A stretch of 30,627 nt of DNA from positions 1 through 30,627 of IMG/VR virus record IMGVR_UViG_3300013126_000153, one strand, 5' to 3'. Of the stretch, positions 3,707 through 30,627 are shown piece by piece. A model generated the notes under the pieces. It searched no databases, had not been told where the DNA came from, and saw only the letters and a list, made by a program, of their open reading frames with translations. This DNA comes from a virus. The translations under genes and the position numbers were made by a program. Position 1 is the first letter of the stretch. Every line of letters begins with the position of its first letter.

Positions 3707-4177
3707 ATGAGTATAAAGATCGATAGTATAAAAAACGTTATTAATACAAATGACGTTAATTATCAAGACTTAAGATTAGATTTTGAATATACATATACAA
3801 GAAATTCGGAATTTCTTAAAAGAGATGAAGTAATTGATTTAAAGGTAGATAACGATTTAAATGCCATAAAAAACAGTATAAGAAATATGTTTTTAACTAA
3901 TAGAGGGGAGAAACTATTAAACCCATATTTTGGTATAGGTCTAAATGGGTTTGTATTTGAACAAGTTTCTGAAACTACAGCTAAAACAGTAGGTGACTTA
4001 ATAGTAGACAATATTAATACTTTTGAACCTAGAGTAAAATTACAAAAAATTAATATTGTTGCCAATGAAGACGATAATAGCTATACAATTAATCTTATTA
4101 TAGGCGTGCCTCAACTTAAAATTGATTCTTTAAATTTAAACGGTGTATTAAATAATAACGGGTTTAACTTTATTTAA
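3707..4177 (+). CDS. 25: Baseplate wedge subunit gp25-like
   Basis: 156 residues (T4 gp25 has 132). It carries the GPW/gp25 fold shared with the sheath-initiating wedge protein of contractile tails and type VI secretion TssE. The signature spans about residues 53-86: AIKNSIRNMFLTNRGEK followed by LLNPYFGIGLNGFVFE, matching the family pattern of a helix, an LLTxxGER-type turn and a P-x-FG-x-GL segment. In the baseplate it would bind gp6 and gp53 in the wedge and nucleate sheath assembly. Gene 6 follows two bases downstream, the same neighbour as in T4. The N-terminal 40 residues are an extension relative to T4. Confidence 0.93.
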   Translation: MSIKIDSIKNVINTNDVNYQDLRLDFEYTYTRNSEFLKRDEVIDLKVDNDLNAIKNSIRNMFLTNRGEKLLNPYFGIGLNGFVFEQVSETTAKTVGDLIVDNINTFEPRVKLQKINIVANEDDNSYTINLIIGVPQLKIDSLNLNGVLNNNGFNFI

Positions 4178-4179
4178 CA

Positions 4180-9469: not shown

Positions 9470-12400
9470 ATGTCTGATATTTTAGAAAAAAATACAGTTC
9501 TTATAACTGTACCTGAATCCATTATAACCGGCAAAACTTTTAATGCTATTGACTATAATGAGCCTTTAACGTTTTTAAATTTTATTGTTAGAACAAACCC
9601 AACTGAAACTGATAGCGCTTACCTTGTGCAGCAATATAGATTGTATTTGCTAGAATGGTACAAATATAAGAAAATAGATAAAACAGATAGTACTGATTTT
9701 GTAAGATTATCTTTTATTACGTTTTTAAGGGAAGTATTGCTTAACTTTTCATCATTAGAAGAAAGAAGATTTGTTTCTAATGCTAACTATTCTAATGATT
9801 TAGATCTATATTCAGTACTTCCTTTTTTTACGAAAAAAATAAAAGAAATATGTAATTATTATTCACTTCTCAGACAAAATGTACCATTTAAAAAGTATGA
9901 AAATGCACTAAAAGGTTCTCAAACAGGAGTAGTTACATTACTAAAAAATGAAATATACAAAACTCTACAAGCTGTCGAAATAGTTTCAAATCAAACTAAT
10001 TTATTTAGCTTATCAGCTATAAAAAATAATTTAAGCATAGAAGTTAAAGAGCTATTTGATGATTCACAGTATTTTGATCTTAACCCTAACTATGATTCCG
10101 CAACTTATAATAATGCTATAACATCTAATTTTTATTCTTCAAATTTAAACGATTTTAACTCAACGTTGTTTACAGATTTTGATACGACAATAGTGGATGC
10201 AATTACTACATACCCATTTTATATTACAGATTTTAAAACTAGCTATTCTATTAATTACCAAGTTTTTGCTGATGATTTACAATACTTGAAAGATAGAGAT
10301 TTTATAAATCAAATAAACAATCAGAATAGAAATAATTTAAATTTAAATCTTGAAAAAGAATTAATTGAAAAATTTATAGGTACTGATTATTATTATTTGA
10401 GTACGGGTAATACTATAAATGATATAGTTTCCGGTGTACTTTTTAAAGCACAAGACAAATCGACAAATTTGCTTAACAAAAGATTTCCTTCCACCGCATC
10501 TTTTCAGAATGAAAGTAATTTAAAAAATATAAGACAGATCGGTGGGTTTTTCTTACCTGATAAATTAGGTGTCTTACATTTTAATAACTTTAAGTATAGC
10601 ATAGATGTTGATAAAAACATACTAACGCCAAATAAGCTATATGTGTTTCCTGACCCACATCACCAGGGTAATATTTCTAACTTATCACTTACAGATTTTG
10701 ATTCCCCAATAATTTATGAAGAAGACGTTTCGTGGATGCATTATAATAGAACTGCACAATACCTATTTGCAAATGTTGTAAGCAATCCGTTATATAAAAA
10801 TTTTTATGCTTATCACAGTAGAAGCGAAACTCTAGGTTATCAACCGATAGGTATGTCGCGTGATGTCGATAGTACAGAGTTTTTTACAGGCTCAGCTAAA
10901 TCTATTTGGGATAATTCTGATGTATTTCCTGTAACAGATAATGAATTACCTATAGACGAAAGACAATTTAATTTATTAGCCGTTAACAAGACATTAACAA
11001 AATATAGAAATGATTTATATGGTAATAACTATGGACTTTATAAAGAAATAAATCCTGTTGGTGTAGGTCTAGACGGAACCAATAGAGGAGATTTTATTTC
11101 TCAAGAAGAATTAGATTTTTTTAATTTTACCGGGGGTAGAGCAGGGCTGTATGGTACTGGTAGAAAGGGCTTAAATTTAAATCAGTTTACAGCGTTAAGA
11201 GTTAAACCTTGTTTGTTGCTTGATGGTTATCTTTTTTATGATTTTGACAAAGGGTTTAATATAGATCTAACAATACCTAACCCAGATAAAGATATATCTG
11301 GTGTTACAACAAGAACAGTAACTCAAATACCCCCAGGTTCGGGTTATTATACAAGAATTAATGCTATAACCGCATCATCAACACCTTTAATAAACTATAC
11401 TTTTGCATTTCCTTATTCACCACCACCTACATTTTCACCTCTACCTGCACCTATTCTTGTAATAGCTTATGGTAACGGTCATTTTTGTGAAAATACTCCC
11501 GAGGGTGATTGTATTGATACGTATTGTGATATTTTTAAAGTAAATTATTGTTTATTGCTTGATTGTTTGACTTACCTGGATAGTTTAAGCAATCAAAGAT
11601 TAGATTTTTCATCTGATAGCCCTCAGTGGGACACAGCAATACCTGTGTATTATAGCGAACTACTCGAAGGTAGCTTAACTAACACTTTTACTAAACCTAA
11701 TAACGTTGATAGAGCTACATTCTCATATACTTTTGCACCTTCAGCACAAGTTATTGCGGAATTAGATGCATTTAGATTTAATCTTGGTGGGAAAACTCCT
11801 TGCGCCATTACAAATACAATAGAATTTCCATCGCCTGAAATTTTAAACTATAATAATGATGTTTCGCAGTTTGTTAATTTAGCAGTACCTGAAAATTACA
11901 AAACATCCGTTAAAAGTTTGTCTACAAACTTAACTAAAAGTAAATCTATTTACGATAGTAGGTATGTAACAGAAGGTATTCTTTATTATAAGAACGCAAA
12001 CACTGCAAAAGTTGAATCAGTGCAAAACGCTCTATCTTCTGTATATGAAAAATACCCTTCAATAATATCAGATAGTATAAAGAGCGGGGTAGTAGATTTC
12101 GATATTATATATAATGTTATTTTTGTTGAAACTAAAGATTATCTCATAATAGATAAATTAAATTATAATTATCAAAATAACAATGTTGAACCTTTTGATA
12201 GTTCTAAGAATTATTTACCAATTTACAGTTCAAATAAAAATTTAGAAAAGACCAGCACTATCTTTTTTAATGAAAAAAGTAGCCAAGTATATTTAGTTAG
12301 AACAGTTTTATTCTCAGATTTAAGTTGTACAAACACAAAAATAATTTATCCCGAAATTTATAAAATTGATATTGCATCACCTGATTTAGTTAAATTGTAT

Positions 12401-13318
12401 CCCAATTTTGAAACTACATATCAAAATTTATCAGTCTTTACTCATCTTGATGTAGATACAAATATAGAGAGAATTGATAAGCCAATACTTTCATATAATG
12501 AAGATACTCAAACGTTCTTAATTAATTATTTTGCTAAAAACAGCAATAATGTTTTTGTAAACGTATTCCATGAATTTAATATAAAAAATTCAAACATAAA
12601 TTTCTTAAGACATATCGCTTATAAGCCTGAATTCTTTATAAAAGATATTAACTTTACATATTACATACCAGCCTCAACCGCAGGCGGTGTTACATTAACT
12701 AATGCACCATCTTCATATCAAGTATATACGGATTGCGGTATATTGTGGTTTGCTACATCGGCTGCGCCATCACCAGTTGCAAAACAATTTATTAATTGTG
12801 ATAGTGGTATTATATTTGCGCCTGCAGCTGTAACACCAACACCACAATCTACACCACCTCCTACACCTACACTACCAACACCTTCGCCTTCACCAACACC
12901 AACATTAACTCAATGGACAGGTTCATGTAGTTATGCGCAAATATTAACTGTATCTGGTGCGAATACTACAGCAGCCAACGGTACATATGTAATTACTGGT
13001 AAGTATACAACTATGCTATCAGAAACAAGTACGTTTACAGTATTTTATCAAAATACTACTAACACAAATTATGCATTAGTATTTGTAAATCAAAATAATG
13101 ACGACTCTTCCTACATAAAGGGAGCCATACTTTCTGCATCTAATTCTACATTTATGAATAATATCGGATTGGTGTATGCAAGTACATCACCTATTGACCA
13201 ATATGCCTGTGCTCCATACGGCATATATGATGTTGTATCGGCACGTACACCTAATGACAATATATTAAGGTATACTTCTGGCAAAGCGCCATACCCACAG
13301 GTACAAAAAGTATACTAG
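9470..13318 (+). CDS. Very large tail-associated protein with internal Thr/Pro-rich linker
   Basis: 1282 residues, not assigned to a family. The N-terminal third is helical (LVQQYRLYLLEWYKYKKID near 53-71). The middle (about 350-600) contains a compact, conserved-looking stretch including PNKLYVFPDPHHQGN and ISQEELDFFNFTGGRAGLYG. Residues about 680-720 hold a Cys-containing segment (CENTPEGDCIDTYCDIF). Near the C-terminus (about 1122-1147, bases 12833-12911) is a Thr/Pro/Ser tract of TPTP and TPSPSPT units, followed by a roughly 135-residue Ser/Thr/Asn-rich C-terminal domain that looks beta-structured. Its place after the wedge genes and before lectin-like and propeller proteins suggests a baseplate or tail-fibre connector. 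This is inferred from context, not homology. Confidence 0.8.
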   Translation: MSDILEKNTVLITVPESIITGKTFNAIDYNEPLTFLNFIVRTNPTETDSAYLVQQYRLYLLEWYKYKKIDKTDSTDFVRLSFITFLREVLLNFSSLEERRFVSNANYSNDLDLYSVLPFFTKKIKEICNYYSLLRQNVPFKKYENALKGSQTGVVTLLKNEIYKTLQAVEIVSNQTNLFSLSAIKNNLSIEVKELFDDSQYFDLNPNYDSATYNNAITSNFYSSNLNDFNSTLFTDFDTTIVDAITTYPFYITDFKTSYSINYQVFADDLQYLKDRDFINQINNQNRNNLNLNLEKELIEKFIGTDYYYLSTGNTINDIVSGVLFKAQDKSTNLLNKRFPSTASFQNESNLKNIRQIGGFFLPDKLGVLHFNNFKYSIDVDKNILTPNKLYVFPDPHHQGNISNLSLTDFDSPIIYEEDVSWMHYNRTAQYLFANVVSNPLYKNFYAYHSRSETLGYQPIGMSRDVDSTEFFTGSAKSIWDNSDVFPVTDNELPIDERQFNLLAVNKTLTKYRNDLYGNNYGLYKEINPVGVGLDGTNRGDFISQEELDFFNFTGGRAGLYGTGRKGLNLNQFTALRVKPCLLLDGYLFYDFDKGFNIDLTIPNPDKDISGVTTRTVTQIPPGSGYYTRINAITASSTPLINYTFAFPYSPPPTFSPLPAPILVIAYGNGHFCENTPEGDCIDTYCDIFKVNYCLLLDCLTYLDSLSNQRLDFSSDSPQWDTAIPVYYSELLEGSLTNTFTKPNNVDRATFSYTFAPSAQVIAELDAFRFNLGGKTPCAITNTIEFPSPEILNYNNDVSQFVNLAVPENYKTSVKSLSTNLTKSKSIYDSRYVTEGILYYKNANTAKVESVQNALSSVYEKYPSIISDSIKSGVVDFDIIYNVIFVETKDYLIIDKLNYNYQNNNVEPFDSSKNYLPIYSSNKNLEKTSTIFFNEKSSQVYLVRTVLFSDLSCTNTKIIYPEIYKIDIASPDLVKLYPNFETTYQNLSVFTHLDVDTNIERIDKPILSYNEDTQTFLINYFAKNSNNVFVNVFHEFNIKNSNINFLRHIAYKPEFFIKDINFTYYIPASTAGGVTLTNAPSSYQVYTDCGILWFATSAAPSPVAKQFINCDSGIIFAPAAVTPTPQSTPPPTPTLPTPSPSPTPTLTQWTGSCSYAQILTVSGANTTAANGTYVITGKYTTMLSETSTFTVFYQNTTNTNYALVFVNQNNDDSSYIKGAILSASNSTFMNNIGLVYASTSPIDQYACAPYGIYDVVSARTPNDNILRYTSGKAPYPQVQKVY
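12833..12911 (+). repeat. Thr/Pro/Ser-rich coding tract 1
   Basis: About 26 codons dominated by ACA/ACT and CCA/CCT encode an irregular TPTP / TPSPSPTPT tract linking the body of the 1282-aa protein to its C-terminal domain. It is the first and shortest of three such tracts between 12.8 and 15.1 kb. Confidence 0.85.
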
Positions 13319-13350: not shown

Positions 13351-13635
13351 ATGGCGGCTTACGATCAAATATACGTAAATTCAGTTTCTGGCTCAGTAAA
13401 TATGTTTGGCTCTTGTTATGTTGCTACAGAAACAGAGGGTATTGTTAATACAAAAATTTCTGAGGTCGGGCAAGCTGAAGACTGTTTATTTTGCTTTGCT
13501 CTTACCGGGGTACCTGTACCTTTACCGACTGTTACCCCGTCAAATACCCCGGACCCCTCCAATCCAGTGACCCAAACACCAACTCTAACTCCAACCCCAA
13601 CTATAACCCCAACACAAACGCCTTCAGGTATCTAA
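13351..13635 (+). CDS. Small protein with Thr/Pro-rich tail
   Basis: 94 residues. The first 55 look like a small folded domain with three cysteines (CYVATETEG near 22-30 and CLFCF near 45-49). The rest is a Thr/Pro tract of TPTLTPTPT-type repeats with a SGI end. No signal peptide is apparent and the family is unknown. It starts after a 32-base gap that carries a late-promoter motif, and is followed after four bases by the lectin-like gene that has a longer Thr/Pro tract of its own. It may be an accessory tail protein, or a reduced relative of its larger Thr/Pro-bearing neighbours; the sequence does not decide. Confidence 0.75.
13523..13626 (+). repeat. Thr/Pro-rich coding tract 2
   Basis: About 35 codons encoding TP-type repeats in the C-terminal third of the 94-aa protein. 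It uses many ACC and CCC codons, locally raising GC, unlike the ACA/CCT-rich tract in the next gene. The two tracts are therefore not a recent exact duplication. Confidence 0.8.
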
Positions 13636-13639
13636 TATT

Positions 13640-15124
13640 ATGGAATTAAGTGCAACAAGATCATTTACGTTTTTACCTGCTTATGAATTATCTAAGGAAG
13701 GTGATATAGTAGTATCGTTTGATTATATTACTAATGTTTATGATAATTATATTACTGAATATTATAACGAAACTCCCTCAGAAGGTTTTTGTTTATTTTT
13801 TTATGAAGGTAATAAATCAACCCTTGGTGGGGGACCCGGTTATGGGTTAGGTTATCTACCAGTATCCTCATTTGTTTTTAATAATTTAAATTTTGATTTA
13901 ACTGACACATATAAATTGTCTAATTCGCTACCACTTATACCTCTCACAGCATCTAAAATTATAAATTCTAAAACTGCATATCAATCAAACACATCTTTTA
14001 AAGTAGAATACCACCCGGTAGATTACCCCTCGGTACCAGGATCTGCGGGTTGGAGAATTTGGGGTGTGACTTCTCCTGGTGTAAGTGCTTTATTTTATTA
14101 TAGTAATCAAAATAAAACTTACCCTATATGGGTTTCGGATTGGAATGATGGCCCTGATAAGCCGGGTAGCTGGGGTTACCCTGATTTTATAAGATCTAGA
14201 ACTGGAACTACCTATACTGGTAAAGATGGTGGGTTGTTAGCGGTAGGGTTTGATTTTACAGGTAATTTTGGTAAAACATTTCTTACTTTTAGCCCACTTG
14301 ATTCAGCTATAGGCAATCTTTCTTCTTCCAACCCTAATTCTATAAGTATTCGTGATAGTTATATCAATAATTATAACAAATTAGTTCAGACTGATAATTT
14401 ATCTTCAAATTTTTATACAACACCTATTCTTTTGTATAATAGTCTTGCTACTTCTTTAACCGCTAATACAGGCAATAGAGTAAAAATAAGATTAACTGAC
14501 CTAGGTAGAACTATAGAAGTAAAAATTAAACCTTATAATTCAGAAAATTATTTAAATGCAATAAATTTCGGGGCGCCTGATTTAGGGCCAAACCTAACAG
14601 ATGACAGTATAAAAATAGGTTTAAATTTCTCTTCATTAAACAATACAGATTTTGGTATAAAAAACTTTAATGTAGCGGGAATTGCTGCTTCTCCCACAGC
14701 TACAGAGACACCTACCCAGACACCTACTCAAACACCTTCTCAAACTGCGCCCGTAACTCAAACACCAACACCTACTCAAACATCTACTGCAACAGTTACA
14801 CCTACCGTTTCACCGACTTCTTCACAAACACCAACAGCAACCCCAACTGTTACACCTACTCAGACTGTTACACCTACATTCACACCTACAAATACAATTA
14901 CTCCTACCCAAACACCTACCGCACAGGTTACACAAACACCAACACCTTCTATTACACCTACCGAAACACCGCCTATCACACCAACACCAACAGAAACACC
15001 ACCAGTTTCGCAAACACCTACAGAAACACCAACACCAACTATAACACAAACACCTACTCAAACACCTCCATCAGGCGTACCTCTACAAGACGGTATTATA
15101 GTTGGGTTTGGTTTTGATGTATAA
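13640..15124 (+). CDS. L-type-lectin-like protein with long Thr/Pro-rich stalk
   Basis: 494 residues. The first 350 resemble a legume/L-type lectin (concanavalin-like) jelly roll in order of elements: an [10 protein letters not shown] strand with a following glycine-rich loop ([13 protein letters not shown]), [15 protein letters not shown] at about 194-208, corresponding to the family's VEFDTxxN metal-site strand, then [18 protein letters not shown] and [20 protein letters not shown] at the back sheet. Classical catalytic or metal residues cannot be confirmed by eye. Residues about 351-478 form a mucin-like Thr/Pro/Gln tract, followed by a short hydrophobic tail ([10 protein letters not shown]). 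A glycan-binding tail protein on an extended stalk is the best reading. It sits four bases after the 94-aa gene with no promoter of its own. Confidence 0.8.
14691..15074 (+). repeat. Long Thr/Pro-rich coding tract 3 (TPTQTPT-type repeats)
   Basis: About 128 codons of imperfect TPTQTPT, TPTETPP and TPTVTPT units, built from short DNA units such as acacctactcaaacacc repeated with variation. In protein it would be an extended, unstructured, mucin-like stalk with more than 50 Thr residues. In DNA the reiteration could favour slippage or recombination. Confidence 0.9.
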
Positions 15125-15132: not shown

Positions 15133-16668
15133 ATGAATTATAACCCAGTATACTTAAGTGATGTAACCGAAAGCTGGGAAGGTGTAGATTCCCGCCTTTC
15201 TGGCGGCAACACAAACCGACAATTTATATATACAATTGCATATTCTGGAAATAGATTATTTTTTGGTGGAAGCTTTATTTTTAATTATACAAATGTACCT
15301 TGGAAATTTGATTATGTATATCCGATATCTTCATATAATTTAAATTTTATAAATATTGGTTATTTTGATGATGATCCAACCCAAAACATTATAAAATCTT
15401 TAAAAAATATTGGAACTCGTAAACAAGTAGTAGCAGATAGTGACAGTACTGTATACGATGGAGTCTTTAATTTAGCACTTTGCGGTAACAATTTAGTAGC
15501 AGCAGGTAGGTTTAATTTAGTTAATACTGAGATAACGGGGTTTCAAACTACAACACATATTGATAGAAGCTTATTTTATCAACTTTCAAATACTTGGCCA
15601 TTTGATACTACTCTACCTCCTTTAACAAATATTAGAGTTTATGATTGGGGTAAACTATATAATTTTATAGGTACACAAGGCTTCCCTGGTTCGGGTTGTT
15701 TTACACCCTCGTTTTCCGGTGATTATGCAAAAAATATTACATATTATAATAATGATTTAAACAGATGGGTAGCTATTCCTGATTCTGAGAACATTATAAA
15801 TAATTCTACCGGACAACTTCAAGCATTAGAAGTTTTAGATAGCCCGTTAAATGCAAGCTCTAAAATGTTATTTACAGCAGGTTCACATCTATCCGGTACA
15901 CTTCTTTATTATACAGGTACTAGATGGGATTTTGTTAGACCATCACTCTCATCAAGTAGATTTTGGGGAGCCAACCCTCAATGCTATCAATTGTATAATG
16001 ATAATAGAGGAAATTTAATTTATGTTGGTTCTTTTAGTGGATTAAACGGTGATTGGAGACGGTCAGGGGTTGCAAAATATAACAGTACTTTTACAACAGA
16101 TAGTTTATTGGCAATTGGAACAGGATTAACAGGAGCAAGTGGTCACGGATATTGTGTAACAATGTCTGGTGATAATTATATTGTTGGTGGTTTATTTGAT
16201 AGTAAAATAGCTTTTTTCGATATTAACAGCAGTACCAATTGGAGAAAGCTATATAGTGATACTAATAATAGTATATTCCTTTCGTCAAGCATGTCATTTA
16301 ATAGTATTGATCTCGATATAAATCCAAATAAGATTTATTTAGCGGGCAATTTCTTTTTTATAAAGAATGACTTTAACATGACACGAATTGTGCAATTAAC
16401 AAGTAATGGTACAAATTATAGTTTTGGTAGAGTTGATGGAAATATAATAATTCCCGGAATAGAAACATTTAACCGCAATATTCCTCAAACTCTCTTAGTT
16501 AATAGAGTTGCAAACTACACTGTTGACGCCACCCTTTCAAGCGATTTTGATAATATAGCAGGGTTAAATTTACGAACACATTTACAAAATTTCGATTCAG
16601 GCGGTTCTGGTATTTCTATTTACGGTAAATCACCATATCAAGGTGTAAGCGGTTTGCTGGTAAATTAA
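15133..16668 (+). CDS. Beta-propeller tail protein (Rax2 / delta-60-repeat-like)
   Basis: 511 residues built from repeated four-strand blades. Each carries a short signature of a hydrophobic strand followed by GG-F or AG-F: RLFFGGSFIF, NLVAAGRFNLV, LIYVGSFSGLNG, YIVGGLFDS and IYLAGNFFF. A SGVAKYNST phrase after one blade matches the GxxxxGIARLN pattern of delta-60 / Rax2-type propellers. It has no transmembrane segment or signal peptide and I see no catalytic motif. Such propellers in tail proteins are usually binding platforms. It stands alone between its own late-promoter motif and the 36-base gap before the glycosyltransferase cassette, so it is probably a single-gene unit. Confidence 0.82.
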   Translation: MNYNPVYLSDVTESWEGVDSRLSGGNTNRQFIYTIAYSGNRLFFGGSFIFNYTNVPWKFDYVYPISSYNLNFINIGYFDDDPTQNIIKSLKNIGTRKQVVADSDSTVYDGVFNLALCGNNLVAAGRFNLVNTEITGFQTTTHIDRSLFYQLSNTWPFDTTLPPLTNIRVYDWGKLYNFIGTQGFPGSGCFTPSFSGDYAKNITYYNNDLNRWVAIPDSENIINNSTGQLQALEVLDSPLNASSKMLFTAGSHLSGTLLYYTGTRWDFVRPSLSSSRFWGANPQCYQLYNDNRGNLIYVGSFSGLNGDWRRSGVAKYNSTFTTDSLLAIGTGLTGASGHGYCVTMSGDNYIVGGLFDSKIAFFDINSSTNWRKLYSDTNNSIFLSSSMSFNSIDLDINPNKIYLAGNFFFIKNDFNMTRIVQLTSNGTNYSFGRVDGNIIIPGIETFNRNIPQTLLVNRVANYTVDATLSSDFDNIAGLNLRTHLQNFDSGGSGISIYGKSPYQGVSGLLVN

Positions 16669-16704: not shown

Positions 16705-17976
16705 GTGGCTAAAAATAAAAATACTATATATATTCAAATAGCATCATACAGAGACCCACAGCTATTACCAACTCTTAGAGATTGTCTTGCAAATGCCAAG
16801 TATCCAGAAAACTTAAGATTTGGTATATGCTGGCAACATGATGAAAAAGAATCCTTAGGTGAGTTTATAGATGATACCAGATTTACTATTTTAGATGTTC
16901 CGTACAATAAAAGCAAAGGTGTGTGTTGGGCCCGGCATGCTGTTCAACAACATTATAGGGGAGAAAAATACACCCTACAATTAGATAGCCATCACCGCTT
17001 TGTAAAAAATTGGGACGAGATGTTAATAAAGATGATGGAGCAATTAATAAAAAAAGGTCATAAGAAACCATTATTAACAGGGTATATACCGAGTTTTGAT
17101 CCAGATAATGATCCAGGCGCAAGAATACATGTTCCTTGGAAAATGAATTTTGATAGATTTATTCCAGAAGGTGCAGTATTTTTTTTACCTGCCTCTATTG
17201 ATAACTTTAAAGATCTCAACGAGCCAATACCCTCCAGATTTTACTCTGCACATTTTTGCTTCACATTAGGTCAATTCTGTAAAGAAGTACCTCATGACCC
17301 TAACTATTATTTTCACGGTGAAGAAATTAGCATAGCTGTAAGAGCGTTTACACATGGCTATGATTTATTTCATCCCCATAGAGTAGTTATATGGCATGAA
17401 TATACTCGAAAAGGTAGAATCAAACAATGGGATGATGATAAGATATGGGTTCAGCGCAATGAGGCATGCCATCTTAGAAATAGAAAATTGTTTGAGATGG
17501 ATGGTGAAAAGAAAGATATTGATTTTGGTGTGTATGATTTCGGTAAAGTAAGAACGGTTAGAGATTATGAAAAATACGCTGGTATATGCTTTAAAAAGAG
17601 AGCAGTACAGCGTTATACTATTGATAATAATCTAGCACCAAACCCATACCCCTTCAAAAATGAAAAGGAATTTGAAGCTTCATTTTTAAAAATATTTAAA
17701 CACTGTATCGATGTAAGATATGACCAGGTACCGGAAAAGGATTATGATTTTTGGTGTGTTGCTTTTAAAGATAAGAGCGGTAAAGATGTATTTCGTAAGG
17801 ACGCAGATAAAGATGAGATCGATCGTATGCTTAAAGATCCCGACAAATATTGTAAAGTATGGCGAGAATTTAACGCAGAAGAGCTACCTGCTAGCTGGTT
17901 GGTGTGGCCACACAGTAAGAGTAAAGGTTGGTGTCAAACGATTACCGGTAACATTGGTCACAAAACTGTGAGCTAG
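16705..17976 (+). CDS. GT60-like polypeptide N-acetylglucosaminyltransferase (Skp1/mucin GlcNAc-transferase family)
   Basis: 423 residues from a GTG start. It resembles the GlcNAc-transferase family (CAZy GT60), known from Dictyostelium Gnt1, which adds alpha-GlcNAc to hydroxyproline of Skp1, and from trypanosome enzymes that add GlcNAc to mucin Thr. IYIQIASYRDPQLLPTL (8-24) is the opening Rossmann strand and helix. LQLDSHHRFVKNWD (91-104) contains the family metal-binding D-S-H in place of DXD (Asp94, His96). HGEEISIAVR (204-213) and VIWHEYTR (228-235) are the acceptor and metal-site regions. No membrane anchor is present, so the enzyme would act in the cytoplasm. It opens a cassette of five abutting genes right after proteins with Thr/Pro-rich tracts. 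Its GC looks slightly higher than its neighbours. The donor and acceptor are inferred. Confidence 0.9.
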   Translation: MAKNKNTIYIQIASYRDPQLLPTLRDCLANAKYPENLRFGICWQHDEKESLGEFIDDTRFTILDVPYNKSKGVCWARHAVQQHYRGEKYTLQLDSHHRFVKNWDEMLIKMMEQLIKKGHKKPLLTGYIPSFDPDNDPGARIHVPWKMNFDRFIPEGAVFFLPASIDNFKDLNEPIPSRFYSAHFCFTLGQFCKEVPHDPNYYFHGEEISIAVRAFTHGYDLFHPHRVVIWHEYTRKGRIKQWDDDKIWVQRNEACHLRNRKLFEMDGEKKDIDFGVYDFGKVRTVRDYEKYAGICFKKRAVQRYTIDNNLAPNPYPFKNEKEFEASFLKIFKHCIDVRYDQVPEKDYDFWCVAFKDKSGKDVFRKDADKDEIDRMLKDPDKYCKVWREFNAEELPASWLVWPHSKSKGWCQTITGNIGHKTVS

Positions 17977-17977
17977 T

Positions 17978-18802
17978 ATGCAAGAGGAAGAGAAAAATAA
18001 AATAGTTTATCTGCATATACCTAAAACTGGTGGTGCGGCGATGGAGTATTATTTTTATAATCAAACAAAGAATTTAAGACGTAATTATTTTTTAAGTTTT
18101 TTCGGAGTAGATGATTCGAGATTCATAAAAGATGACCTTTCTACTCAAAGAAAAAACGGAAATCACTGCTTAATTGAATCTTTGTTTAGTAATAAGAAAT
18201 TACAATTGGAATTTGAAGCTAGTATACATTTTAAACAAAGCAAATTATTATTCGGTCATACTGTATACGGGTGGGACAGAATTTTTCCTAACTATAATTT
18301 CAATTATGTAACAGTTATAAGAGAACCAATAGAAAGAACTATTTCAAATATATTACAATACACAACAGTTTTTCCTAATGGGTTTACTAAATTTGGTGCA
18401 TTTAAATTACCTCCCAAAAACAGCAGTGAATATTGGGAAGAGATATATTTAATATTGACAAATAATAGAAGAATACAAGGACTATTGCCCCACGAAAATA
18501 TGAATTTTAAGAACTGTCAAGTAAGAGTTTTTGAGGGGCAAGATTTAGCGGTTTATAGAGAAGATGTAAATTTAGATTTAGCTATCGAAAACGCTACAAA
18601 AATACAATATTCTTTATACGATAGTTTTAATGAGGGTATACAGAAAAGTTTTAATAAATTAGATACACCTATCGATATGTCTAGAAATCATGTTCCTAAC
18701 AAGAAAAATAGAAGTGTACCACAAAAAATTGTTGATTTACTCTTAGATTGGAACGCTAAAGATATACAATTTTATAACATACTTAAATCAAAGTATGAAT
18801 AA
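17978..18802 (+). CDS. PAPS-dependent sulfotransferase (Sulfotransfer_2-like)
   Basis: 274 residues. IVYLHIPKTGGAAMEYYF (9-26) is the 5'-phosphosulfate-binding loop of carbohydrate-type sulfotransferases (HIPKTGG signature). YVTVIREPIERTISNIL (110-126) matches the 3'-phosphate-binding motif (REP followed by a Ser, here Ser123). HxxYGW (94-99) and NHVPNK near 235 are also usual for the family, the latter probably in the substrate or cofactor loop. There is no membrane segment, unlike Golgi enzymes, so it is a soluble cytosolic form that would use host PAPS. It starts one base after the GT60-like gene and overlaps the next gene by eight bases. A sugar hydroxyl on the glycan made by its neighbours is the natural guess for the acceptor. 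Confidence 0.9.
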   Translation: MQEEEKNKIVYLHIPKTGGAAMEYYFYNQTKNLRRNYFLSFFGVDDSRFIKDDLSTQRKNGNHCLIESLFSNKKLQLEFEASIHFKQSKLLFGHTVYGWDRIFPNYNFNYVTVIREPIERTISNILQYTTVFPNGFTKFGAFKLPPKNSSEYWEEIYLILTNNRRIQGLLPHENMNFKNCQVRVFEGQDLAVYREDVNLDLAIENATKIQYSLYDSFNEGIQKSFNKLDTPIDMSRNHVPNKKNRSVPQKIVDLLLDWNAKDIQFYNILKSKYE

Positions 18803-19628
18803 ACTAGTTACTGCGATTTATTTGGGTCTTTTTAACACAGAATACGGTGGTAGACCACCTGCGTGGCGTACTAGATATTTTAACGGTATCATACAATTAA
18901 AAAATAACAATTTTCAAAAGATTGTATATACAAGTAGTAAACTAAGCAGTGATATACAAGCATATATTAATAAAAACTGTACCGTTGAACAAGCAAATCT
19001 GTTTACAGTAAAAGTTTTTGAATTAGATCAATTTGTGCATCATTCAAAAATTATTGAAATTAAACAAGCTCAGAACATAAAACATAATATTGATAGATGT
19101 ATTCATGTACAATGGTTAAAGTTTTGGCTTTTAAATAAAGAGCTCGAAGCAAATAACTACGTTTTTTGGATAGATGCAGGTCTTATTGATCATATTCTAT
19201 TTCCATGCAGCACATATAAAAATTTAACTAATATTATAAACCAAACATATTTAGAAAATCTTATTAAACGAATAAATGACAAAACATTTATCATTACCGG
19301 TGATAGAAATAAAGGTTTTACTGGCCCCACAGGTCCGCCCTCACTTAAATCGTTAAAAAATTATAATCTTCACCCTATAGGTGGGTTTTTTGGTGGTTTA
19401 TCTACTAGTCTAGAGAAAACAATTAAAAGATATGAATTAATTATAGAGCAATATCTTAATAACAAGACTTTATATTTTGAAGAAGCAGTTATGGAGGATG
19501 ATTTTTTGCATAATACTGATGAGTATATATTCGATACTTTTGATACTTGGTACCATGAAAACACTAAATGGTTCAATCAGAAGCAACTGGAAAAAATAAA
19601 ATCTTTTCATAAAGTATTTTACAATTAA
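18795..19628 (+). CDS. HtrL/YibB-like glycosyltransferase family protein
   Basis: 277 residues. The layout fits the HtrL/YibB (WlaTC-like) family of putative bacterial surface-sugar transferases: an N-terminal VTAIYLGLF strand, HVQWLKFWLLNKELE helix (104-118), YVFWIDAGL (122-130) with the acidic nucleotide-sugar/metal site Asp127, HPIGGFFGGLS (193-203) and EEAVMEDDFL (229-238). The N-terminal half of the gene at 20252 has the same motif order, so the two are paralogues. The ATG at 18795 overlaps the preceding gene by eight bases; no ribosome binding site is seen. A sugar-adding step after the first transferase is likely, but the sugar is unknown. Confidence 0.82.
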   Translation: MNKLVTAIYLGLFNTEYGGRPPAWRTRYFNGIIQLKNNNFQKIVYTSSKLSSDIQAYINKNCTVEQANLFTVKVFELDQFVHHSKIIEIKQAQNIKHNIDRCIHVQWLKFWLLNKELEANNYVFWIDAGLIDHILFPCSTYKNLTNIINQTYLENLIKRINDKTFIITGDRNKGFTGPTGPPSLKSLKNYNLHPIGGFFGGLSTSLEKTIKRYELIIEQYLNNKTLYFEEAVMEDDFLHNTDEYIFDTFDTWYHENTKWFNQKQLEKIKSFHKVFYN

Positions 19629-19629
19629 T

Positions 19630-20247
19630 ATGGGGTTAGGTAGCTACATTTACAAAAATAGGATAGTTCAACAACATAAAAATATTGAACCTGTTCTATG
19701 TGAACTATTTAATACAGTAAAACCTGCAAGAGTAATTGAAATAGGCACATCATACGCGGGGCTTACACTACTTCTGCGCGATACATTAGATAAAATAGGA
19801 TTAAATGAAAGTAAGTTAGTAAGTTTTGATAAAATAGTTAAATTTAACGATATTAATAAACTCAATTCAATTAGTAATTTAGAAATTAAAATAGAAAATA
19901 TATTTGAATATTTAAAAGGTGGTACAGTTTTTAAATTAATATGTGATAGAACTAAAGATTTTATACAGCAACCCGGCCCTACAATAATTTTCTGTGACGG
20001 TGGTAATAAAATTGCAGAATTTAATTGTTTAGCTGAGCATATAAAACCCGGTGATATAATATTAGCACATGATTATATTGAAAATAAGCAAATTTTTGAA
20101 AGCACATTTAAGGATAAAATATGGAATTGGTGTGAAGTTACGGAAGATAAAATACTAAAATGTTGTGAAGTGTATAATTTAAAACCTTTTATGCAAGATA
20201 AATTCCAGAATGTTGTCTGGGCATGCAGAATAAAAGAATTACTTTAA
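19630..20247 (+). CDS. Class I SAM-dependent methyltransferase, sugar O-methyltransferase type
   Basis: 205 residues. VIEIGTSYAGLTLLL (35-49) is the SAM-binding motif I with its glycine-rich turn. IIFCDGGNK (119-127) followed by IKPGDIILAHDY (138-149) matches the CmcI / rhamnosyl O-methyltransferase group (Methyltransf_24-like), in which these acidic and His residues bind a metal and the sugar hydroxyl. It is short but appears complete. It starts one base after the HtrL-like gene and four bases before the bifunctional transferase gene, so it is part of the same transcript. It probably caps a sugar by O-methylation; methylating a small molecule or lipid is less likely given the context. Confidence 0.85.
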   Translation: MGLGSYIYKNRIVQQHKNIEPVLCELFNTVKPARVIEIGTSYAGLTLLLRDTLDKIGLNESKLVSFDKIVKFNDINKLNSISNLEIKIENIFEYLKGGTVFKLICDRTKDFIQQPGPTIIFCDGGNKIAEFNCLAEHIKPGDIILAHDYIENKQIFESTFKDKIWNWCEVTEDKILKCCEVYNLKPFMQDKFQNVVWACRIKELL

Positions 20248-20251
20248 AAAT

Positions 20252-21928
20252 ATGTTACAAAAAAATAATATTACAATTGTAACTGGTATATTTGATCTAG
20301 GAAGGGAAGGCGCTGGTGAAGGTTTTAAGAGACCCTTTTCACATTATATATTAAAATTTACAGAATTGCTTAGCGCATTTAAAGACTATAATCTAGTTGT
20401 ATATGTTGAGAGCAAGTATAAAAATTTGATATCCGAAATTAGATCTACGCATAATACTGTAATAAGAATTAAGGAAATAGATGAATTTAAAACCAAATTT
20501 CCATTCTATAATCAAGTTAATACTATAAGAAAAAATGAAACGTGGCTATCTCAAGCCGGGTGGTTAAGACAGAGTACACAAGCAACACTCGATCTCTATA
20601 ACCCCATGGTAATGTCAAAGATGTTTATGTTGCATGATGAAAAAATAAGAAACCCCTTTAATACAGAATATTTTTACTGGATAGATGGTGGTATAACAAA
20701 TACAGTTCATAGTGGCTACTTTAATAAAGATAAAGTAATTGACAAGTTACCAAATATTACAGATAAATTTTTGTTTATAGCCTTTCCTTACGAAACTGGA
20801 GGCGAGATACATGGTTTTGAACGATCGAAAATGAACGAATATTCACAGACAAAAAATGTTGAGTATGTCTGTAGGGGCGGGTTTTTTGGTGGTCATAGTA
20901 AACATATTAGTGAAATAAATGCACATTATTATTCTATCTTACATGACTCAATTAATAAGGGGTTTATGGGAACCGAAGAAAGCATTTTTACGATAATATC
21001 TTATCTTAAGCCTCAATTATATCATTTGCATATGATAAATGGTAACGGTTTAATAGGTAAATTTTTTGAAGATATAAAGAATTTAAATGTTGAAGAAAAA
21101 ATAAATGTAATTTCTAATTATAATGGTACTTGTTCATATGTAATCACGTTTAATTCGCCAGAACAGTTTGAAAAATTAATTGAAAGTTATCAAAATCAAC
21201 CTGGGTTTTTTAAAGAAACTAAAAATTATCTTTTAGATAATAGTACGGACCCGGCCACCCTGCCAAAATATACCGAATTATGTAAAAAATTTAACTTCGA
21301 GCATATTAAACAAAATAATATTGGCATTTGTGGAGGCAGACAGTTTGTAGCAGAGCATTTTGAAAACAGTACACAAAGTAAGTATTACTTATTTTTCGAA
21401 GACGACATGAATCTATACAACGGTAATGATATAGCCTGTAATAACGGATTTTTACGTAAAACAGATAATTTATTTTTTAAATTATTAAAAATTATGAATA
21501 AAGAGAAGTATGATTTCTTAAAACTATCCTTTACTGAATTTTTTGGTGATAATAAAACACAATGGGCATGGTATAATGTACCGCAGCATTTAAGAGAAAG
21601 ATTTTTTCCGGAAAAAACTAAATTACCTGTACAAGGATTAGACCCTAATGCACCAAGCACAGTTTTTAAGAATATAAAATCAGTTGATGGTATCAGTTAC
21701 GCTGATGGTGAGGTATATTATTGTAACTGGCCTCAAGTTGTATCACGTGAAGGTAATAAAAAAATGTTTTTAACTACAAAATGGAAGCACCCTTACGAAC
21801 AAACATGGATGTCGCATTTTTATCAATTAACTAAAGCAGGTCAATTAAATGGTGCGGTATTACTTCTTTCGCCTATACATCATCATAGATTTGCACACTA
21901 TAAAGCGGGCGAAAGGCGAGAAAATTAG
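20252..21928 (+). CDS. Two-domain glycosyltransferase: HtrL/YibB-like plus GT-A fold domain
   Basis: 558 residues. Domain 1 (about 5-275) repeats the HtrL/YibB motif order seen in the gene at 18795: ITIVTGIFDLG (7-17), YFYWIDGG (140-147), VCRGGFFGGHS (206-216) and GTEESIFTII (240-249). Domain 2 (about 293-558) is a GT-A-like transferase opening with CSYVITFNSPEQF (294-306). GICGGRQFVAEHF (358-370) is the helix before the metal site and YLFFEDDM (379-386) supplies the DXD-type acidic motif; the C-terminus is His-rich (SPIHHHRFAHY). The fusion suggests two consecutive sugar additions by one polypeptide. It is the last gene of the cassette, followed by a 32-base gap with a late-promoter motif. 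No membrane segment is present. Confidence 0.85.
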   Translation: MLQKNNITIVTGIFDLGREGAGEGFKRPFSHYILKFTELLSAFKDYNLVVYVESKYKNLISEIRSTHNTVIRIKEIDEFKTKFPFYNQVNTIRKNETWLSQAGWLRQSTQATLDLYNPMVMSKMFMLHDEKIRNPFNTEYFYWIDGGITNTVHSGYFNKDKVIDKLPNITDKFLFIAFPYETGGEIHGFERSKMNEYSQTKNVEYVCRGGFFGGHSKHISEINAHYYSILHDSINKGFMGTEESIFTIISYLKPQLYHLHMINGNGLIGKFFEDIKNLNVEEKINVISNYNGTCSYVITFNSPEQFEKLIESYQNQPGFFKETKNYLLDNSTDPATLPKYTELCKKFNFEHIKQNNIGICGGRQFVAEHFENSTQSKYYLFFEDDMNLYNGNDIACNNGFLRKTDNLFFKLLKIMNKEKYDFLKLSFTEFFGDNKTQWAWYNVPQHLRERFFPEKTKLPVQGLDPNAPSTVFKNIKSVDGISYADGEVYYCNWPQVVSREGNKKMFLTTKWKHPYEQTWMSHFYQLTKAGQLNGAVLLLSPIHHHRFAHYKAGERREN

Positions 21929-21960: not shown

Positions 21961-22659
21961 GTGAGTGACGTAAATACAACAACTGTATATCTTACTTCTA
22001 TTCAAGACCCTGGTGATATAGTAATGTATAATCATTACTGGTTTTCTGATGTATTGTCAGGAACTAGTATAGCGTATCCAAATACAGCTGATGGCAATTT
22101 CTTTACGTATACCTCTCTACCTCTTGTTACGGCTGACGATGGTTTGTTTTTTCCTTGGGGATATGCTTTTCAGGATACAACGTCAATACAATATGTAGGG
22201 AAATATAAAGGTAGAACTACATTAAATTTTTCTGGTACCGGTTTAGACATTAGATTTTTTCCTATTTTAAGAATAAATTATGATTTTGGTGATGGCGCCA
22301 GCTATGAAAACAACAGAGCTATTCTTATAGATTATTCTAAACTACAGATAGATTCGTATGTAAATGGTTTAGGATTCGGCGACCCAAAATGGGTTATAGT
22401 TCAACATACTTACGAGCCTAGTGATACAACCTTTACAACTACATACACTGCACATTTAAGAGTATTAAATGGCAATCTAGTAACAAATAATTTCTATTTC
22501 TTGATCGATATAGTACAAGATTCTATATTTGATTTTGACGACTTTAGTTTGCTTGATACTAAATTTGTATCGCTATCTGATAAATCAGCTATTAGTATAT
22601 TTGAAGCTTCTAATCCTGAGTATATCTTAAATAACCTGGTAAAATTTAGCGGTTCATAA
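21961..22659 (+). CDS. PKD-like tail protein
   Basis: 232 residues from a GTG start. The central part resembles a PKD/Ig-like domain: RINYDFGDGASYEN (103-116) carries the YDFGDG signature and VQHTYEPSDTTF (147-158) the HxY strand that follows it, with a 30-residue insertion between them. The flanks are beta-rich and aromatic. The GTG is chosen because a late-promoter motif lies six bases upstream and the frame has no better ATG nearby. A PKD module also occurs in the gene at 6030. It is a likely small decoration or adaptor protein of the tail; its binding partner is unknown. Confidence 0.78.
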   Translation: MSDVNTTTVYLTSIQDPGDIVMYNHYWFSDVLSGTSIAYPNTADGNFFTYTSLPLVTADDGLFFPWGYAFQDTTSIQYVGKYKGRTTLNFSGTGLDIRFFPILRINYDFGDGASYENNRAILIDYSKLQIDSYVNGLGFGDPKWVIVQHTYEPSDTTFTTTYTAHLRVLNGNLVTNNFYFLIDIVQDSIFDFDDFSLLDTKFVSLSDKSAISIFEASNPEYILNNLVKFSGS

Positions 22660-28033: not shown

Positions 28034-28738
28034 ATGGCAGATATTAGTATAGTAAAAATTAAAGTAAGGCGTGGAACAGACTCAGATAGAAGAAGAGTAA
28101 TTCTTGATGAAGGTGAGCTCGGTTTTACAACAGATACGCAACGTTTTTTTGTCGGTGATGGTGGTACCTTAGGCGGTGTAAATATTGCTAATAAATTTCT
28201 AGGTTATGGCGATAGAACCTTGTTCGGTGATTCTCTTATAGGTGATTTTGTTTATGATACAGTACAAAATTCTCTTTACGCATTAACTTCTAACCCATCT
28301 TCACTCTCAGGAAATTGGATTAATTGTGGGGTAGTACCAGATAATACATCTATCACGCTAACTTCTGCTTATAAATTCGGTGTCGTTCCTAATAGTATTG
28401 ATAGAAGATTTGTTAATACACAGGATTTAGTTTATCTTGGTCTTTCTTCTACCGGTAATAATCAAATAACTTTAAATATTGATAATATAACAATAAAATT
28501 TAATCCTCAGCAAAAAATTTATGTTGATACTTCTACAGTTTCAGTTTCTTCATTAAAAAATACTGGCTTAGGATTAGATTTTACAGGGGTTAAGGTTGAT
28601 AATTTACCTTTATTATTCGGTCTTTCAGCAATTGCCGGTACAAACCCTACATATAATAATCTTCCATCAAAATCTTTATTTATTGTAAATGATCCATTCC
28701 CATCAAATATCTATTATTTGATGATTAAGTCGCCTTAA
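28034..28738 (+). CDS. Tail fibre-related protein with Mtd_N-like N-terminus
   Basis: 234 residues. IKVRRGTDSDRRRVILDEGE (about 8-27) followed by LGFTTDTQRFFVGDG matches the short N-terminal domain of phage fibre proteins (Mtd_N-type: RRGT...LxEGElxxxTDTxRxxxGDG) that attaches fibres to the baseplate. GDFVYDTVQNSLYALTS (about 71-87) is a second conserved stretch. Both blocks recur in the same order in the next gene, so the two are paralogues at their N-termini. The C-terminal half is beta-rich and different from its neighbour, fitting a receptor-binding or connector role. It starts four bases after the 84-aa gene with neither ribosome binding site nor promoter motif. Confidence 0.85.
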   Translation: MADISIVKIKVRRGTDSDRRRVILDEGELGFTTDTQRFFVGDGGTLGGVNIANKFLGYGDRTLFGDSLIGDFVYDTVQNSLYALTSNPSSLSGNWINCGVVPDNTSITLTSAYKFGVVPNSIDRRFVNTQDLVYLGLSSTGNNQITLNIDNITIKFNPQQKIYVDTSTVSVSSLKNTGLGLDFTGVKVDNLPLLFGLSAIAGTNPTYNNLPSKSLFIVNDPFPSNIYYLMIKSP

Positions 28739-28746: not shown

Positions 28747-30627
28747 ATGCCTGGCGTATTTGAAATAACTGATACAACAGTATTAAAAATACTAGTACGT
28801 AGAGGAACTGAAGCAGAGCGTCAAAAAGTTCGTCTTGATGAAGGTGAACTTGGTTATACTATTGATTCAAAAAGGTTGTTTATTGGAGATGGTTTAGGTG
28901 GAGGCGGAAATGTTTCAGGTATCTTATATCATGGAGCCTACCCTAATGTGGATACAGTCATAAATTCGGTACCTCAAGGTTATTTTCAGTATGGAGATTT
29001 GTTTTACGATACAAACGAATCTACATTATACGCATTAGGTGAAACTGCGGGTAGTAAATTTGATGTAGGGCCTAGATATGAAGATTTAGTTTTAGAAAAA
29101 ACAACTTCACCCACAGGTCGAGTCAGAATATCTGAAAGTGTATTCGGAAAGTACACTGAGGGGGTAAATGTTAAGAGAAGAGCATTTTATTTTGACTATG
29201 ATACTAATGAACCGTTTTATAACCAAAGAATAGTAGTTAATTTTAATACACTTTATTGGGCTATCACCTCAAAATCAAATTTTAATCAATTAAATCAAGA
29301 CGGAATGTTTTATTTTGGCAATATAAAACAAAATAGCGCAAAATTAGATTTAGATTATCGTATTAATGTTAATACCACAGGCCTTAACAACGGAGCACTA
29401 GCAGTTTATAGCCCTACTAATGATGTTTTTGTAATTAGATCTCAAGGAGATTTTGGTAATGTTACCGGTACATCAAGTGTTTTAGGTCTAAGTGGAATTT
29501 ATTTTTACCCCGGGGTACCATCTATTGCAGGGGCAAGCTCTTTCATACTTACAACATCAGGTACTGCATATTTTCAAAAACCCGGTGGTTCTGCATACGA
29601 ACCATCATTCTTAGTTGATGGTTTTTCTAGATTTACAAACAGTGTAATGATAGATAATGATTGCTTGGTGTTAGGTAATCTTACTGCATTGGGTGATTTT
29701 ACTGTATTAGAAACATTTGTAACAACATCATCCTCACTATCTGTTATAAACAGTACAAATCGTGATGCCATGGTTATAAGACAAGAGGCTGCCAATTTTA
29801 ATACAGCTTATTTTTCAAATGATAATTTACCCCAAACAAGAGTTATATTTGATAGGTATTGTAGAGGTTCTTTTGGTAACGGTTTTGGTGAAACATCAAG
29901 AAACTCTGCAACCACTATAACTGGTGCACTTACTTCATTACACGTTGCGGGGGGAATTCTTGTAAGAGACGTTGCTGTATCTGATGGGGGTATGAATGGC
30001 CGCTTCGATGTTGATATGAATGGTGATTGTGTCATCAAAACAAGTTCTAACTTTTTAGACGGTAGTGTTCATGGTACCTATATTTCAAAAAACCAAGTTA
30101 ATCCTACAGCTTACCCCGCCGATCACGTAGCTCAAATATTTGGTTCTGGTACAAACGGGGGATTAAAAATTATAAGCAATACCGGTCTTGCACCTTCTTT
30201 AGTAGTAGGTTCATCAAACGCAACTAATTCTCAAAGATTATTATCTTTAAGAGTTAATGCTGCTGGCACTCTTATGTCAGATGGTTCTGAAGTTGGGTAT
30301 ATTAACCCTAACGGTTATTTTAACTTAGGTAACGGTGCTGGTGGAGATATAAATGGCAATTTAAATGTAGCCGGCTTTATTAGAGCTACAGGCGATATCG
30401 TTGCATATTTCTCATCAGATATAAAATTAAAAGATAATATTTCTAATATTACTAATTCCTTAGATAAAATAGAAAAAATTAATGGTGTTGAATTTGATTG
30501 GAAGGAAAACGAACTTCATTCTGGCCACGACGTTGGTATTATTGCACAGGAAATAGAAGAAGTTTTACCTGAAGCAGTAACAACGCGCGAAAATGGCATA
30601 AAAGCAGTAAGATATGAAAAATTAATA
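28747..30627 (+). CDS. Tail fibre protein with Mtd_N-like N-terminus and S74 intramolecular chaperone (3' end outside window)
   Basis: Open frame from ATG 28747 to the window edge, 627 codons without a stop, so the gene is truncated by the window. The N-terminus (ILVRRGTEAERQKVRLDEGE, about 15-34, then IDSKRLFIGDG) repeats the attachment domain of the previous gene. Next come a long beta-rich fibre region and glycine-rich turns (NLGNGAGGDINGNLNVAGFI near 532-551). From about residue 556 a Peptidase_S74 domain begins: SSDIKLKDNISNI with the Ser557-Lys562 dyad expected for self-cleavage, then VEFDWKEN, GHDVGIIAQEIEEVLPEAV and KAVRYEKLI. In endosialidases and T5 fibres this domain trimerises the fibre and then cuts itself off before the serine. 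Most of the S74 domain is present; only its end is missing. Likely the receptor-binding fibre. Confidence 0.92.
   Translation, partial: MPGVFEITDTTVLKILVRRGTEAERQKVRLDEGELGYTIDSKRLFIGDGLGGGGNVSGILYHGAYPNVDTVINSVPQGYFQYGDLFYDTNESTLYALGETAGSKFDVGPRYEDLVLEKTTSPTGRVRISESVFGKYTEGVNVKRRAFYFDYDTNEPFYNQRIVVNFNTLYWAITSKSNFNQLNQDGMFYFGNIKQNSAKLDLDYRINVNTTGLNNGALAVYSPTNDVFVIRSQGDFGNVTGTSSVLGLSGIYFYPGVPSIAGASSFILTTSGTAYFQKPGGSAYEPSFLVDGFSRFTNSVMIDNDCLVLGNLTALGDFTVLETFVTTSSSLSVINSTNRDAMVIRQEAANFNTAYFSNDNLPQTRVIFDRYCRGSFGNGFGETSRNSATTITGALTSLHVAGGILVRDVAVSDGGMNGRFDVDMNGDCVIKTSSNFLDGSVHGTYISKNQVNPTAYPADHVAQIFGSGTNGGLKIISNTGLAPSLVVGSSNATNSQRLLSLRVNAAGTLMSDGSEVGYINPNGYFNLGNGAGGDINGNLNVAGFIRATGDIVAYFSSDIKLKDNISNITNSLDKIEKINGVEFDWKENELHSGHDVGIIAQEIEEVLPEAVTTRENGIKAVRYEKLI

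Follow-up and report, generated by a model that had tools for sequence, protein, structure and literature searches.

A candidate phage cassette for mucin-type O-glycosylation with constant ends and an exchangeable interior

Mucin-type O-glycans of Trypanosoma and Dictyostelium are started by enzymes of glycosyltransferase family 60 (GT60), which attach alpha-linked N-acetylglucosamine (alpha-GlcNAc) to Thr-rich domains (PMC3769586, PMC8724618). The current study concerns a cassette of five genes (16705-21928, + strand) in the 30.6-kb virus record IMGVR_UViG_3300013126_000153 of IMG/VR, whose full 30,627 nucleotides, probably a fragment, are referred to here as the window. The first gene of this cassette belongs to the same family as the initiators Gnt2 of Dictyostelium and TcOGNT-2 of Trypanosoma cruzi, which act on Thr/Pro-rich acceptors and whose products are extended by several further transferases to strain-dependent end structures, as is proposed here (PMC3769586, PMC8724618). 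The cassette differs from the protist system in being found in phages and bacteria, in its predicted activity and cytosolic location, in its organization as one gene cluster, and in its exchangeable interior. A second GT60 system modifies a hydroxyproline of Skp1 in the cytosol, where Gnt1 is followed by the bifunctional PgtA (PMC6939170, PMC8724618). Both systems combine a GT60 initiator and a two-domain glycosyltransferase, in the cytosol for Skp1 and, as predicted, for the cassette; the second enzyme of the Skp1 pathway comes from other families, and a prolyl hydroxylase is mostly absent from the cassette-bearing records.

Few examples of glycosylated phage particles have been demonstrated so far. 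In the Xanthomonas jumbo phage XacN1 at least two glycoproteins were reported from proteomic analysis, and the authors suggested that phage-encoded transferases were responsible (PMC5852040); in the parts of that report available to us only ORF328 and ORF334 were named as glycosyltransferases, and no description of a cassette or of an acceptor was found. The core described below lies in one cluster of XacN1 in the order initiating transferase (ORF334, 51% identity to gene 1), carbamoyltransferase, HtrL-like protein (ORF332, 28% identity to gene 3), ORF331 and two-domain enzyme (ORF330, 43% identity to gene 5), so that a carbamoyltransferase and ORF331 take the place of the sulfotransferase and the methyltransferase. 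Pro/Thr-rich proteins are encoded by XacN1 as well, ORF350 among them. In mycobacteriophages, phage glycans are reported on capsid and tail-tube subunits, at the C-termini (Freeman et al. 2023, as cited in a later paper), and the chlorovirus PBCV-1 synthesizes a large part of its glycan without relying on the host (cited in PMC5852040). The likeness of PBCV-1 to the present system lies in an autonomous, virus-made glycan, there placed on the capsid. PBCV-1 is a eukaryotic virus with N-linked glycans on the major capsid protein; to our knowledge its glycosylation genes do not form one swappable cassette, and we know of no interior-variable cassette described for mycobacteriophages. No paper joining GT60 and bacteriophages was found in the literature searched, nor any phage system with the exact composition of the window cassette, in agreement with the initial annotation of this DNA, although a negative literature search is not proof of absence.

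The initial annotation, made from the sequence alone, had described one glycan-building cassette in the tail region, in which a transferase of the protein type initiates and other enzymes tailor the chain, and this description was supported. The five open reading frames (ORFs) are co-directional and nearly gapless, as described, with spacings of +1, -8, +1 and +4 bases. Gene 1 (16705-17976) is a polypeptide N-acetylhexosamine (HexNAc) transferase of the mucin type and GT60 kind, matching PF11397 (GlcNAc; E 9e-71, 239.6 bits, cut-off 21) and the glycosyltransferase family PHROG 24687 (3e-177). Sequence searches of the PDB gave no match. The AlphaFold2 model of gene 1 (pLDDT 91.5) had a mucin-type polypeptide N-acetylgalactosaminyltransferase structure in each of its top 42 PDB matches, with moderate TM-scores (about 0.5), and its DxH metal motif (D94-S95-H96) was unchanged across 42 sequences. 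The GT-A fold and this motif fit mucin-type initiators, the role proposed for gene 1. Gene 5 (20252-21928), the proposed core extender, matched HtrL_YibB (PF09612) over residues 6-264 (3e-15, 56.9 bits, cut-off 24.1); its model consists of two GT-A domains and resembles LH3/PLOD, LARGE1, chondroitin polymerase and COLGALT1, and the EDD motif of the C-terminal domain (E383-D384-D385) was unchanged across 40 sequences.

Between these two genes lie a sulfotransferase, an HtrL/YibB-like glycosyltransferase and a putative methyltransferase. Gene 2 (17978-18802), a candidate for a sulfate cap, passed the cut-off of Sulfotransfer_2 (PF03567; 3.6e-6, 27.7 bits, cut-off 22) and contains the motifs HIPKTGG and REPIER for binding of 3'-phosphoadenosine-5'-phosphosulfate. 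It had no relative among isolated phages, and in the clustering of 84 loci its cluster had no members besides the window and the copy of the window itself (L001). Gene 3 (18795-19628) had no Pfam match of its own, and is called HtrL-like because a relative (L042) in its cluster of 28 members (c4) passed the PF09612 cut-off with 25.5 bits. Gene 4 (19630-20247; cluster c8, 26 members), proposed to add a methyl cap, is assignable as methyltransferase-like only, of the S-adenosylmethionine-dependent CmcI/rhamnosyl-O-methyltransferase type. The five-gene observation was confirmed; genes 1, 2 and 5 matched their families over the cut-off, gene 3 by way of a relative, and gene 4 at a score below the cut-off.

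Relatives of the gene 1 transferase (GT in the following) numbered 171 in one IMG/VR scan, and 80 of these loci were fetched (66-82% identity); the isolated phages with a relative were only XacN1, RAS14 and CM1. Proteins were clustered over 84 loci, all of which contain the GT by construction of the search, and the gene 5 family (cluster c1) was present in 70 of them. Interior variation was counted over 67 cassettes with both ends seen, from environmental phages and the jumbo phages XacN1 and RAS14. The interior genes fell into 70 clusters and 50 distinct ordered sets, with up to eight genes each. Many cluster representatives matched no Pfam family; the recognizable ones were mainly glycosyl-, methyl-, carbamoyl- and sulfotransferases, namely FkbM methyltransferases (6), GT10 fucosyltransferase, other methyltransferases, TylF, PLOD-type GT, GT25, galactosyltransferase, carbamoyltransferase, GT17, GT34, DegT aminotransferase and sulfotransferases.

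The nearest relatives retained the end genes at 70-83% identity around interiors that were unrelated or strongly diverged. In the closest of them (L002) the flanking genes c27 and c19 were 70-73%, the GT 83% and gene 5 72% identical to those of the window, but its interior homologues were only 27% and 31% identical, stood in a different order and did not include the sulfotransferase. Another relative (L005) had flanks and ends in common with the window and five other interior genes, and in three loci (L008, L014 and L024) the GT was 72-73% identical although the structural flanks were at 33-38%. These identities indicate that the ends are either more constrained or more mobile than their neighbourhood, and that the interior has been exchanged. 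The proposal that the cassette is a swappable block has therefore to be narrowed: swapping of the whole cassette was rejected since the end genes are constant, whereas the interior genes, but not the bookends, are scattered independently among relatives, an outcome that the initial annotation had named as refuting. A biosynthetic order read from the gene order was also abandoned. One set of lineages has the interior enclosed by the bookends, another has the bookends side by side, the interior order varies, and gene 5, previously taken for a late enzyme, is one of two constant core enzymes and not a late cap. At least three genomic settings were seen. In the window type the cassette lies between virion-region genes; in the second the two-domain gene directly precedes the GT, and protease-like genes are close by; in the third the surroundings are small genes and a putative regulator. 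The setting clustered on a quick GT tree, which was used for this question only; phage and bacterial enzymes were interleaved on it, and its deep joins are unsure.

The initial annotation left open whether the target was the virion or the host surface, and it missed the likely acceptor; Pro/Thr-rich ("PTQTPT") tracts lie in three proteins encoded upstream of the cassette on the same strand. The longest, of about 130 residues, is near the C-terminus of a 494-aa protein (13640-15124), the proposed main acceptor; the C-terminal half of a 94-aa protein (13351-13635) is also Pro/Thr-rich, and a 1282-aa virion-region protein (c18, 9470-13318) has a short tract near residue 1110; these two are proposed as acceptors as well. 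The question of the target is thus less open, with Pro/Thr-rich virion-region proteins as the most likely acceptor. Orthologues of c18 on two contigs without the cassette had no such tract. Two close relatives of the window phage (G130 and G132) kept the structural genes and had neither cassette nor tracts; since both are fragments, the cassette may lie elsewhere in the genome. Another record (G129) had tracts and no cassette on its 40-kb contig. Elsewhere, a Pro/Thr-rich virion-region protein (L014, 7627-9918) carries a proprotein-convertase P-domain.

The strict DNA pattern for PTxTPTxTPT occurred once in the window (14831-14859) and in none of 100 shuffles. It was found in 31 of 49 GT-bearing records, including 20 of the 24 of at least 90 kb, so that these large records, like the window, encode a candidate Thr/Ser/Pro-rich acceptor domain in the same genome as the GT. 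None of 11 large GT-lacking random contigs had it, nor did the random contigs without a full-length GT (0/40 and 0/18). The association was significant by Fisher's test (p 3e-6 for large records, 1e-14 for all), with no correction for relatedness. Full-length PF11397 occurred in one of 59 random contigs (G137), which also had the strict pattern, while a weak partial match in another (G154) went without it. Conversely, 13 of 40 Pro/Thr-positive contigs, and 8 of the 12 longest, encoded PF11397.

The same association recurred in unrelated settings. The structural genes of phage G137 had no match to those of the window, yet directly upstream of its GT, GT25-type, HtrL-like and two-domain genes come three Pro/Thr-rich genes, and a fourth is found just beyond. 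In phage G131 the GT is divergent from an adjacent Pro/Thr-rich gene. In bacteria, a Saprospiraceae chromosome has the GT and two-domain gene adjoining a Pro/Thr-rich protein that carries a type IX sorting domain (32.3 bits, cut-off 27), and in Jiulongibacter sediminis (L359, NZ_LGTQ01000005.1, 6950-end) the GT, carbamoyltransferase and two-domain enzyme, which also occur in XacN1, adjoin a Pro/Thr-rich protein with a signal-like N-terminus. The latter locus has in addition a second, distant GT paralogue. Across the bacterial loci, 10 of 11 tract ORFs were at most three genes from the GT (p 0.004, related loci not corrected for). The L380 match is Thr/Ser-rich and not a PT repeat. Two contigs of metagenome-assembled genomes (L362 and L375) paired the GT with a different large partner (cluster c194) beside Pro/Thr-rich proteins, which may be a second architecture of the system.

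Taken together, the cassette, whose interior diversifies, probably serves cytosolic mucin-type O-glycosylation of virion proteins of the phage itself; the glycoproteins reported from XacN1, a carrier of the core, agree with this reading. Gene 1 would add the first HexNAc, probably alpha-GlcNAc, to Thr or Ser of the Pro/Thr-rich tail-region proteins, gene 5 would lengthen the chain with further sugars, and the second HtrL-type transferase, the sulfotransferase and the O-methyltransferase of the interior would branch and cap it. Exposed parts of the virion would thereby receive a dense sugar coat with negative charge, and its chemistry would vary among close relatives, since the ends stay constant and the interior is exchanged. 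The computation shows the gene identities, the fold of the initiator, the constant ends around a variable interior and the association with Pro/Thr-rich proteins. The sugars, their linkage, the acceptor residues, the place of the tract proteins in the virion and a benefit, which might lie in receptor contact, shielding or particle stability, are inferences.

Several points weigh against this proposal, besides the uncorrected relatedness behind the co-occurrence counts. The sugar and the residue are predictions, the match of gene 4 to RMNT_CmcI (6e-4, 20.0 bits) is under the curated cut-off of 23.2, and the glycoproteins reported from XacN1 (PMC5852040) were not matched here to particular proteins. 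The cassette and the tract genes are apart in many relatives. Among the four large GT-bearing records without the strict pattern, one (G020) had a Pro/Thr-rich ORF that was found by translation, two (G008 and G011) show collagen-like Gly-Ser/Thr tracts in their place, and one (G018) lacks both kinds. In the other direction, four large contigs (G030, G033, G034 and G039), which may be fragments, have Pro/Thr tracts and no detected PF11397, indicating that a tract does not require this enzyme. The Pro/Thr-type repeats of these four records (L086, L114, L133 and L148) may go with another initiator. Long Gly-Ser/Thr collagen-like proteins were seen in two GT-bearing phages without Pro/Thr tracts, one of them G008 (L514, 8144-11251; L527, 3-2912); as a general alternative acceptor such tracts were rejected, since there were two exceptions only and the background of 2 in 44 random contigs makes them weak support.

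It is unlikely that the system glycosylates some other virion or host protein, be it collagen-like fibres or a folded protein in the manner of Skp1, and that the Pro/Thr association reflects the shared ancestry of large aquatic phages. GT60 does include an enzyme that modifies one hydroxyproline of a folded protein, the two records with collagen-like tracts would agree with this explanation, and a GT conserved at 66-83% suits a fixed acceptor. The Pro/Thr association nevertheless recurs in unrelated phages and in chromosomes of bacteria from different phyla, and the GT60 mucin enzymes use Thr/Pro-rich tracts of this very kind. Initiation on hydroxyproline was rejected, and a Thr/Ser linkage preferred, because the prolyl-hydroxylase type of 2-oxoglutarate (2OG)-Fe(II) oxygenase (PF13640) turned up in just 2 of the 22 related records, a scarcity that leaves room for a host enzyme or another oxygenase family and, for the window, refers to a fragment. 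In one record (G008) two 2OG-Fe(II) oxygenase domains passed the cut-off, and a third fell short of it.

Remodelling of the infected cell's lipopolysaccharide or capsule, e.g. to block superinfection, is improbable. The GT10, GT25, GT2 and FkbM methyltransferase families found in the interior are common in envelope glycan loci, and the interior-variable layout resembles O-antigen loci. Such a role was proposed for jumbo cyanophage glycosyltransferase clusters in a published survey of jumbo phages (PMC7824862). However, the initiator has a polypeptide-transferase fold and is not a lipid-carrier enzyme, and the interior-family tally given above holds no lipid-carrier initiator, flippase or polymerase family. 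Assembly of an envelope polysaccharide is further disfavoured because the five window cassette proteins have no membrane segments; only 8 of 425 cassette proteins exceeded the hydropathy threshold.

DNA glucosyltransferases of the T4 type differ in fold from mucin polypeptide transferases. Glycosylation of phage DNA bases against restriction is very improbable, although DNA is the substrate of many characterized glycosyltransferases from phages and various virus-encoded DNA glycans are known (cited in PMC12619734), since the initiator has the mucin polypeptide transferase fold, its homologues occur with the same partner genes in bacterial chromosomes beside Pro/Thr-rich, secreted-looking proteins, and no base-hydroxymethylating enzyme was among the annotated window genes (no dedicated search was made elsewhere).

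Whether the glycosylation of Pro/Thr-rich virion proteins proposed here holds widely is evenly balanced in our judgement. Large aquatic phages and some bacteria would then run a true mucin-type O-glycosylation, in which a GT60-kind initiator and a two-domain extender act on Pro/Thr-rich virion proteins and exchangeable tailoring genes give a phage-specific virion glycan, a counterpart of O-antigen diversity. If so, mucin-type glycosylation would extend to phages and bacteria as a widespread system (171 initiator relatives in one scan) for which acceptor, initiator, core and variable caps are all predicted. It would also assign a role to a PHROG glycosyltransferase family and to many Pro/Thr-rich proteins of phages that lack an explanation, and virion glycans specific to a strain could be used to study how phages contact their receptors, how the immune system recognizes them and how stable the particles are.

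Near VgrG-type spike genes, GT homologues were also seen in Burkholderiaceae (L366, L367, L369 and L371). The C-termini of these VgrG-type proteins are long Pro/Ser/Thr-Glu repeats (PPPSE, PPTEP) and not PT repeats, and the repeat tails, mostly two to four genes from the GT, were counted with reserve. Type VI spikes may accordingly be acceptors for glycosylation too.

The tail-region setting of the window cassette holds because the upstream region at 3707-6027 encodes baseplate-wedge proteins and the downstream gene at 28747-30627 a tail-fibre-type protein of the S74 kind. The earlier statement that structural genes bound the cassette on both sides stood in this wider sense, but its direct neighbours belong to no named family. 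The upstream neighbour (c86, 15133-16668, + strand) had 35-49% identity in the nearest relatives and the downstream one (c27, 21961-22659, + strand) 70%; c27 bears a Pro/Thr-rich tract in other lineages and not in the window. The reported lack of an internal promoter motif was uninformative, as promoter-like sites in the region numbered 55 against 54.8 expected by chance, and promoter and terminator evidence was dropped. A major-tropism-determinant N-terminal domain (PF18454) opens each of two downstream proteins (28034-28738 and 28747-30627), the second of which has an S74 chaperone domain at its end.

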